40,273 nucleotides of DNA. Origin: Actinomycetes bacterium (lineage in GTDB: Bacteria > Actinomycetota > Acidimicrobiia > Spongiisociales > SHLN01). The notes beneath the pieces are model-generated. The model was not told the DNA's origin. It ran no database searches and saw only the letters and a program-made list of their open reading frames with translations. This document shows, one piece after another, positions 6,142 to 16,070 of the stretch. Position 1 is the stretch's first letter. Every line of letters begins with the position of its first letter. Location: positions 1 through 40,273 of the forward strand of contig JAHEJY010000006.1 of the NCBI GenBank assembly GCA_024638625.1. Reading direction: 5' to 3'. The position numbers were made by a program, and so were the translations under genes.

Positions 6142-6774
6142 GTGATCGAATCCAGACCTGCTAGCGAACCCGCAAGCCAACATGCCGGCCAACCCGCAAG
6201 CCAACCTGCCGGCACCCACCAACGAGCGACGTTCCGCTCGGATGCTGCGCCTCTCCTGTTGACGCCTGACGAGATAGGTCGGGCGCTGCGGAGAGTATCT
6301 CACGAGATCCTCGAACAGCTCCCTGACCTCTCGCAGGTTGTGCTGCTCGGCATCCCGACCCGCGGTGTGCCGCTGGCCCGGCGAATTGCATCGGTGATCA
6401 AAGAGTTTGAGGGGATTGACGTGCCGGTCGGCTCGGTGGACGTCGGGCTCTATCGAGATGATCTGGATTACCGACCCACCACCCGGCTTGGGCCGACTGA
6501 GGTTCCGGTCAATCTCGACGGTCGCACGGTTGTGTTGGTGGACGACGTGTTGTTCACCGGCCGAACCATTCGGGCCGCTTTGGACGCTCTCGCGGACCTC
6601 GGCCGCCCCCGCAATGTCCAACTAGCTGCGCTGGTCGACAGGGGACACCGCCAGCTTCCGATTCGGGCCGACTACGTCGGAAAGAACCTCCCCACCTCGG
6701 TGGAAGAGCGTGTGACGGTTCAGCTCGAAGAAACCGATGGTACCGAGGGTGTTTGGCTGGAGCGAGCCAGATGA
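6142..6774 (+). CDS. pyrR: Bifunctional pyr operon regulator / uracil phosphoribosyltransferase PyrR
   Basis: [55 protein letters not shown] (PRPP loop). GTG start. Confidence 0.94.
6167..6214 (+). repeat. 24-bp tandem direct repeat (2 copies) in the pyrR N-terminal coding region
   Basis: aacccgcaagccaacatgccggcc / aacccgcaagccaacctgccggca, two mismatches; encodes an [16 protein letters not shown]-type linker. Confidence 0.85.
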
Positions 6775-13392: not shown

Positions 13393-14297
13393 ATCTTGCC
13401 GTCGAATTGGGCGGCACGAACCTCCGCTCGCCTTTGATCGCAGCGTCCGGGACCGTCGGGTCGGTTGTCGAGTTCGCCCAGGTCGCTTCCTTGCGGCCAT
13501 ATGGCGCCGCGGTCGCAAAGTCGGTGGCGCCAGTCGCCTGGAAGGGCAGGAAGCCGCCACGCATGGCTCCGGTCGGTGGCTCCATGCTCAACAGCATTGG
13601 TATCCAGAACCCGGGCGTCGACGCCTGGTTGCGCGAGATCGTCCCGTTGCTCAGGGACCTCGACGTCGATGTCTGGGCATCAATCGTCGGACACACCGTC
13701 GACGAGTTCGCCAGAGTGGCAGCCGCGATCGACGGCGTAGCGGACGTAAAAGCTGTCGAGGTCAACCTTGCCTGTCCCAACCTTGACCATGAGATGTTTG
13801 CTCTGGACGCCGGCGCATCTGCCAAAGTCATCGCCGAGGTGAGAGCGGTCACCGATAAGCCGATCGGCGCGAAACTATCGCCGAATAGCGAGGATATCGT
13901 GAGGATCGCCGCCGCCGTCCAACAAGCGGGCGCAGATTGGGTGGTCCTCACCAACACCGTGTGGGGCTTCGGAATCGATATCGATACCAGAAAGCCCTTG
14001 CTGTCCGGAGGCATCGGTGGATACTCCGGGACCGGGCTGAAGCCGATTGCCTTGCGATGCGTGTGGGAGGTTCACAACGCTTTGCCCGAGTTGGCGATCG
14101 TTGGCTGTGGCGGAGTTCGGTCGGGAAGGGATATGGCTGAGTACTTCATGGCAGGCGCTTCAGCCGTCCAGATCGGATCGGTCCATTTCGCTGAGCCTCG
14201 CGCCGGTAGACGAATCCTCAAAGAGCTCGAGCATTGGATGAAGCGCAACGGTGAATCGTCGGTCACAGACCTGGTTGGAAGTGCTTCGCCTTGGTAG
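13389..14297 (+). CDS. pyrD: Dihydroorotate dehydrogenase, class 1B-like catalytic subunit
   Basis: [93 protein letters not shown]. Confidence 0.93.
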
Positions 14298-15001
14298 CCA
14301 GCCGGATTCTGGTCGCGCTTGATCTTGCCAGCGCAGACGAGGCAGTGACGACAGCCCAGAAACTCACCGAACACGTCGCAGGATTCAAGATCGGCCTCGG
14401 GCTCCTCATGGGGCCGGGCCCCGCCACCGCCGCTGCGCTGGCGCGTCTCGGCTTGCCAGTGTTCGTCGATGCCAAACTCCACGATATCCCGTCACAGGTC
14501 GAGATGGCCGCCCGCCGGATCGGGCAATACGGTGCCCGGTGGGTGACCGTTCACGCCTCAGGCGGACAAGCGATGATGGAAGCCGCCAACGAAGGATTAC
14601 AGGCAGGGGCAGGCAGCCAGGAGGCCGGGGTGCTTGCCGTCACCGTGCTCACGAGCCTCAGTCCGGAAGATCTCGAGAGATTCGCGCCAGGGACGTCGCC
14701 CGGCAAACTCGTTTCTCGCCTCGCGCGAGTCGCCAGGGACGCCGGGGTCGAAGGTGTTGTGTGCGGGGTTCCTGAACTCGGTGTTGTTGCCGATGTGGCT
14801 CCCGAACTGGTCAAGGTGACGCCCGGGATTCGTCCAGGTGCGATGGACCCGGGCGACCAACGCCGGTCTGCGACGCCCGCCGAGGCCGTGTCTCGCGGCG
14901 CCGATTATCTGGTGGTCGGGCGCGCAATCACATCCGCCGACGATCCAGTTGCAGCTGTCGGAGCAATCAACGACGAAATCACGAATGCGGCCCGTGACTG
15001 A
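14291..15001 (+). CDS. pyrF: Orotidine 5'-phosphate decarboxylase
   Basis: ILVALDLASADEAV, VFVDAKLHDIPSQV, VTPGIRPGAMDPGDQRRSATPAEAVSRGADYLVVGRAITSADDP. Probable TTG start. Confidence 0.95.
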   Translation: MVASRILVALDLASADEAVTTAQKLTEHVAGFKIGLGLLMGPGPATAAALARLGLPVFVDAKLHDIPSQVEMAARRIGQYGARWVTVHASGGQAMMEAANEGLQAGAGSQEAGVLAVTVLTSLSPEDLERFAPGTSPGKLVSRLARVARDAGVEGVVCGVPELGVVADVAPELVKVTPGIRPGAMDPGDQRRSATPAEAVSRGADYLVVGRAITSADDPVAAVGAINDEITNAARD

Positions 15002-15833
15002 GAGAAACGAAGTCCTGGAACAGGCCGCGAAGTTTCGGAGCCTCCGCAAAGGCGCCCGTGCCGCGCTGCGCACCCGGTCGATGACATTGCAAGAGCTTTT
15101 CGATCAGGCCTCCTCAGATCCGCTGCTCGGTTCCTCCAAGGTGGCGTCACTCATGTGGGTCATTCCAGGAGTCGGAAAGGTCAGGACACTGCAGCGACTC
15201 GAGGAACTGGGGGTTGCCGAAACGGTCACCATCGGCGATCTCACCGCGGCGCATCGCGCATCGCTGATCGAGCTGGCCCGCGGTCGATTGCTGGTGGTTT
15301 CGGGGCCAAGCGGCGTGGGCAAAGGAACTGTGATTCGGGCCCTGGCCGAAGAAACGTCCTTTCATCTGTCGGTCTCTGCGACGACGCGAAACATGCGTCC
15401 GGGAGAGGTCGATGGTGAGAACTACTTCTTTCTCACGGAACCCGAATTCCGGAAATGGGTCGCGGCAGATCGCATGCTCGAGTGGGCAGAGTATGCAGGA
15501 AACCTCTACGGAACTCCCCGTGCGCCCGTCGAAGCGCATCTGGAGGCGGGGCGTGACGTCGTGCTCGAAATTGAGGTTCAGGGAGCCCGCCAGGTCAAGA
15601 TGGCGATGCCCGAATCGATACTCGTATTCATACTCCCTCCGAGTATCGAAGAGCTCGAAAAGCGTCTGGAGGGGAGAGGCGATACGGCCAACGTCGCCGA
15701 GCGCCTCGAGACCGCCAAACGAGAACTGGAAGAAGTTCCATTCTTTGATTTCACCGTCGTCAACGACGATGTAGAGCGTGCTGCCGGCGAGCTGCGCTCT
15801 ATACTGCGAATCCTCCCCAAGTTTCGGATGTAG
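14985..15833 (+). CDS. gmk: Fusion protein: N-terminal actinobacterial integration host factor (mIHF/sIHF-like) + C-terminal guanylate kinase
   Basis: One uninterrupted frame. N-terminal RNEVLEQAAKFRSLRKGARAALRTRSMTLQELFDQASSDPLLGSSKVASLMWVIPGVGKVRTLQRLEELGVAETVTIGDLTAAHRASLIE matches the mIHF pattern. It leads directly into GRLLVVSGPSGVGKGTVIRALAEE...SVSATTRNMRPGEVDGENYFFLTEPEF (Gmk). ATG 14985 or GTG 14994. Confidence 0.93.
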   Translation: MRPVTERNEVLEQAAKFRSLRKGARAALRTRSMTLQELFDQASSDPLLGSSKVASLMWVIPGVGKVRTLQRLEELGVAETVTIGDLTAAHRASLIELARGRLLVVSGPSGVGKGTVIRALAEETSFHLSVSATTRNMRPGEVDGENYFFLTEPEFRKWVAADRMLEWAEYAGNLYGTPRAPVEAHLEAGRDVVLEIEVQGARQVKMAMPESILVFILPPSIEELEKRLEGRGDTANVAERLETAKRELEEVPFFDFTVVNDDVERAAGELRSILRILPKFRM

Positions 15834-15835
15834 TA

Positions 15836-16069
15836 ATGATCAACCCGCCCATCGAAGACGTCCTCAGCGAGACACAATCCCGCTTCACCCTCGTTGTTTT
15901 GTCAAGCCGCCGGGCACGCCAGATCAACGCCTATTACAACCAGCTGGGCGAAGGTATCGGGACCTACGCCCCGCCACAGGTGCAGACGCTGTCCCGCAAG
16001 CCGCTATCCATTGCGCTGGAAGAGATTGCGGCAGGCAAGGTTGCGGTAGACATCGTCGAGCCGGAGTAA
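15836..16069 (+). CDS. rpoZ: DNA-directed RNA polymerase omega subunit
   Basis: INPPIEDVLSETQSRFTLVVLSSRRARQINAYYNQLGEG; KPLSIALEEIAAGKV. Confidence 0.92.
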   Translation: MINPPIEDVLSETQSRFTLVVLSSRRARQINAYYNQLGEGIGTYAPPQVQTLSRKPLSIALEEIAAGKVAVDIVEPE

Positions 16070-16070
16070 C

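Follow-up and report, generated by a model that had tools for sequence, protein, structure and literature searches.

Gene and domain organization

On the forward strand of the window (the whole stretch of 40,273 nucleotides that was analyzed) a frame without stop codons extends from 14985 to 15833 and could encode 282 amino acids. The initial annotation had described it as an in-frame fusion of an integration host factor (mIHF) and a guanylate kinase (Gmk), and the domain searches agree: residues 28–96 match H2TH_5 (PF22525) with 38.2 bits, above the cut-off of 27, and residues 100–275 match Guanylate_kin (PF00625) with 157.3 bits. The product is probably 279 amino acids long, starting at the GTG codon at 14994 rather than at the ATG codon at 14985, since this GTG is common to both members of the genus and has the same overlap with the stop codon of pyrF in each (gtgactga / gtggctga). 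The features are collected in Table 1. The small open reading frame downstream is one that we take to be rpoZ-like. In M. tuberculosis gmk is likewise followed by rpoZ (PMC6155035). Elsewhere in the window, two 24-base tandem copies (6167–6213) lie at the 5' end of a pyrR-like ORF (6142–6774) and give rise to its N-terminus; the true pyrR start probably lies downstream of these copies.

Table 1. Features of the mihF–gmk region (positions in the window)
Feature	Position	Strand	Description	Basis
pyrF	14291–15001	+	Overlaps at its 3' end with the beginning of the fusion gene	ORF list
mihF–gmk fusion gene	14994–15833	+	GTG start at 14994 (probable); 279 aa	Conserved with sister genome G001
Alternative start of the fusion gene	ATG 14985	+	282 aa; start chosen in the initial annotation	Open frame
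mIHF-like domain (helix 1 and H2TH_5)	15000–15272	+	NF041260 match 15000–15272; H2TH_5 match 15066–15272	Pfam/NCBIfam
H2TH hairpin	15135–15191	+	Best-conserved core, SKVASLMWVIPGVGKVRTL; 18/19 residues identical in sister	Pairwise alignment
Site of the RRxRGLG arginine loop of mIHFs	15225–15245	+	VTIGDLT; 0/3 Arg left	Column table against 61 standalone mIHFs
Junction	15273–15281	+	Residues LAR	Pfam domain limits; AlphaFold2 model (helix 88–97 to Gmk strand 102–106)
Guanylate kinase domain	15282–15809	+	43/44 strongly conserved Gmk columns	PF00625 match; fold search
Small ORF, presumably rpoZ-like	15837–16070	+	MINPPIEDVLSETQSRFTLVVLSSRRARQINAY...; downstream neighbour as in mycobacteria	Direct sequence reading

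The match of the actino_IHF model (NF041260) starts at residue 6, and the mIHF/H2TH part covers approximately residues 6–96. The model scores 57.2 and 57.9 bits on the fusion, slightly below its cut-off of 60, and 58.8 bits on the sister protein. In comparisons with PDB entries residues 6–96 matched sIHF of S. coelicolor (4itq/6bek, 3.4e-9) and mIHF of M. tuberculosis (6tob, 3.8e-7), and the kinase half matched many guanylate kinases. Only about three residues separate the two domain matches, in line with the very short junction proposed earlier. In an AlphaFold2 model based on 14 sequences the protein forms two compact domains (mean pLDDT 92, pTM 0.83), with helix 88–97 running into the first kinase strand.

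The kinase half is intact. It scores 222 bits with guanyl_kin (TIGR03263, cut-off 160), the P-loop and the conserved GMP and lid residues are present, and a Foldseek search matched its fold to Gmk of E. coli and M. tuberculosis. Compared to standalone guanylate kinases such as Rv1389 of M. tuberculosis, it has the same fold and all but one of the strongly conserved columns, but carries an N-terminal extension of about 97 residues. The kinase half is probably an active GMP kinase.

Internal initiation near 15282, which could give separate products, had also been raised. In-frame ATG, GTG or TTG codons are absent between 15153 and 15288, and the flanking candidates are an ATG within the H2TH core (15153) and a TTG within the first Gmk strand (15288), so that a separate Gmk product would have no ordinary start codon. 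A TTG precedes Gmk by a few codons in the sister genome, but the window has CTG at the same place, and a separate Gmk start is thus not conserved.

Conservation and selection in the genus

The one other member of the genus that was examined, the Acidimicrobiia MAG G001, carries the same fusion with 79% overall identity. The comparison has a thin basis, being restricted to two genomes that are both MAGs. The N-domains share 67% of their amino acids (dN 0.26, dS 1.6, dN/dS about 0.16) and the Gmk parts 84% (dN 0.10, dS 1.0–1.3), in both cases from two sequences and with dS near saturation. These values indicate purifying selection on both parts, acting less strictly on the N-domain, whose dN exceeds that of Gmk by a factor of about 2.5. 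Within the N-domain the H2TH hairpin, SKVASLMWVIPGVGKV(R/K)TL, is preserved best.

The presence of the fusion in both genomes and the selection on its two parts show that it does not stem from a sequencing error. An assembly or base error, or the production of two proteins from one frame, has a negligible probability. Such artefacts do occur, as an apparent fusion in another genome (G666) turned out to be an N-filled gap, but the independent assembly shows the same open junction at 79% identity with mostly synonymous changes, which also speaks against the frame break near the junction that had been considered earlier, and the lack of an ordinary start codon before the kinase speaks against two products.

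Occurrence in related genomes

The statement that the window contains no separate mIHF gene can be extended to the entire MAG (2.8 Mb, 86.5% complete), where neither a second H2TH_5 gene nor a second Gmk gene was found and the fusion is the sole match for each. All 40 genomes of the first set, including that of the window, have an actino_IHF match, and the six other genomes of the family have it in a gene distinct from gmk. In sister genera (L042–L045; G002, G003, G004, G006) the start of gmk falls, in another reading frame, within the 3' end of mihF, in the part encoding the RRIRGLS loop, and in many other actinobacteria mihF and gmk are in one frame with a single stop codon between them. In either layout a small deletion or the loss of a stop can create a fusion.

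Whole-protein searches of the order (138 genomes) and the class (395 genomes) gave no true stop-free match of both halves in one frame outside the genus among the matches listed; these were the best 150 or so, and a low-scoring fusion could be missed. Several candidates were rejected. In G221 and G403 the mIHF and Gmk sequences are in different frames and the open frame occurs by chance, in L034, L036, L037, L039 and L040 they are separate genes, and the same holds for the many genomes of the class and phylum with mIHF, a stop codon and Gmk in one frame. The N-filled gap of G666 (L104) would be wrongly listed as a fusion by automated domain counts. A genome of the same order (G034, L048) encodes a standalone mIHF of about 108 amino acids that is also devoid of the RRxR loop (ISEFERIGTLDVDQ), with no recognizable Gmk beside it on the stretch examined.

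Elsewhere, a contig match (L035) pointed to a second group of mIHF–Gmk fusions, and five genomes of one family (f111) in the phylum sample carry such a fusion. This family is presumably Microbacteriaceae, since a Microbacterium record encodes a fusion protein of this kind (Microbacterium sp. NIBRBAC000506063, WP_223172673.1); in this one annotated record that was checked the protein is named only 'guanylate kinase'. The gene lies between pyrF and rpoZ (NZ_CP072877.1, 438421–441459; L139), with two Fic-like ORFs preceding rpoZ. The pyrF annotation of the same record consists of two overlapping parts immediately upstream of the fusion.

In a sample of 150 Microbacteriaceae genomes, 148 gave a match, and by counts made by eye from the matches listed a one-frame fusion is present in 137 of these; in two others a contig end or a frame break interrupts it, and in nine Gmk lacks the N-domain. 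The mIHF–Gmk architecture is thus not new but near-universal in Microbacteriaceae, and the novelty that the initial annotation had supposed for it is lost. Our literature searches found no paper describing the fusion. A separate H2TH_5 gene scoring over the cut-off was not found in the five Microbacteriaceae fusion genomes that were checked. In the nine species without the N-domain (G763, G844, G766, G847, G818, G823, G884, G833, G895) no H2TH_5 match reaches the cut-off anywhere in the genome; the best matches score 14–22 bits and are probably ribosomal protein S13. In these species, seven of which have genomes of 1.1–1.7 Mb, mIHF appears to be lost altogether.

Independent origin of the fusions

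In a Gmk tree the window protein falls within its own family (99/92), apart from the fusions of Microbacteriaceae. A single clade comprising both fusions was rejected in the AU test (lnL difference −84, p-AU 1.6e-50), which indicates that the fusion arose at least twice and that the one in the window originated independently of that in Microbacteriaceae. The two have the same domain order in one frame and the same pyrF–fusion–rpoZ neighbourhood, and in both the mIHF part has departed from the canonical family, but they lack common descent, and the linker in Microbacteriaceae is some 10–15 residues longer whereas in the window there is almost none. The window fusion is a real oddity, probably convergent, and does not represent a new type of system.

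The arginine loop and nucleic acid binding

The N-domain has the helix 1 and H2TH fold and the PGVGK hairpin of standalone mIHF and sIHF proteins (PF22525, NF041260; 4itq, 6tob), and its coding sequence likewise follows pyrF immediately and precedes that of Gmk. Unlike these, it is not a free protein and does not have the RRxRGLG loop. In standalone mIHFs this loop follows the H2TH hairpin and its three arginines are present in 57, 57 and 56 of 61 sequences. The window has V-T-x-G followed by D-L-T instead of G-L-G, and the sister protein V-R-x-A; a column table against the 61 standalone mIHFs shows that the GLG turn is lost in the genus. In the structure alignment the rows of the standalone mIHFs end before the loop. 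The Microbacteriaceae fusions differ from the window in having K-R-x-G with the GLG turn, with K in 34/34 at the first position, R in 33/34 at the second and G in 34/34 at the third.

In M. tuberculosis mIHF, Sharadamma et al. reportedly found that the RRxR arginines contact DNA and that their mutation abolishes DNA binding. Nucleic acid binding by the mIHF part in the window has probably been remodelled and weakened, to judge by its residues. Substantial DNA binding may nevertheless persist: the N-domain has a net charge of +5, retains the hairpin as well as R11, R22, R25 and K56 (standalone-reference numbering), and sIHF reportedly contacts DNA at two or more interfaces (Nanji et al., in work from 2019). 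The nucleoid-associated DNA-binding module of the initial annotation is therefore doubtful and only partly supported: its H2TH hairpin and basic first helix have been kept, its arginine loop and GLG turn have not.

Possible roles of the fusion

The explanation that we favor, with somewhat more than even confidence, is that the protein works as a GMP kinase and carries an N-domain derived from mIHF, of weakened binding, which serves as a structural extension or weak tether. The neighbouring mihF and gmk genes, overlapping out of frame as they are in the sister genera, would have been joined in an ancestor of the genus upon loss of the mihF stop codon and of the overlap. After fusion the mIHF part would have kept its fold and H2TH hairpin and lost the arginine loop. 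In view of this loss it is probably no longer a full nucleoid-compacting mIHF, and its most likely function would be that of a structural extension of the kinase or a weak, non-specific nucleic acid tether.

In a second, less probable scenario the protein is bifunctional. The mIHF half would still bind and bend DNA with its H2TH hairpin and its basic first helix, either keeping Gmk on the nucleoid or allowing nucleotide state or ppGpp to tune compaction. This would be in agreement with the fusion being the sole mIHF found in the MAG, with the hairpin being the best-conserved part of a positively charged N-domain, and with the essentiality of mIHF in mycobacteria (PMC6155035, PMC10028186), which makes outright loss surprising. 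Also, (p)ppGpp inhibits GMK in several phyla, and oligomer contacts influence the active site (PMC6783271). However, neither genus member has kept the arginine loop, the 34 Microbacteriaceae fusions examined all have it in an altered form, and nine Microbacteriaceae species have dropped the N-domain.

Alternatively, the fusion could have been a neutral accident, with a decaying mIHF part that is merely tolerated on the kinase. Loss of the arginine loop, the higher dN of the N-domain and its absence from several Microbacteriaceae would be consistent with such a relic, yet the low dN/dS and the near-invariant H2TH core suggest that selection is still acting, the N-domain has a confidently folded model, and a comparable fusion has been kept across 137 Microbacteriaceae genomes. 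We consider this option improbable. That the fusion would simply fix the stoichiometry of the two proteins, as was suggested initially, fits poorly with the divergence of the N-domain and its loss in several Microbacteriaceae.

A further, rather speculative idea, to which we give little more weight than to a relic, is that two actinobacterial lineages independently made mIHF a regulatory domain of Gmk, in which nucleic acid binding and the conversion of GMP to GDP, together with its inhibition by ppGpp, interact. In two separate lineages of actinobacteria no free mIHF gene was found and an mIHF with a changed DNA-contact loop is joined to Gmk, even though mIHF is reported as essential in mycobacteria. 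Since the Microbacteriaceae fusion occurs in cultured organisms, a possible tie between the role of mIHF and Gmk, and the possible retention of a nucleoid protein for some other reason after losing its grip on DNA, are directly testable.
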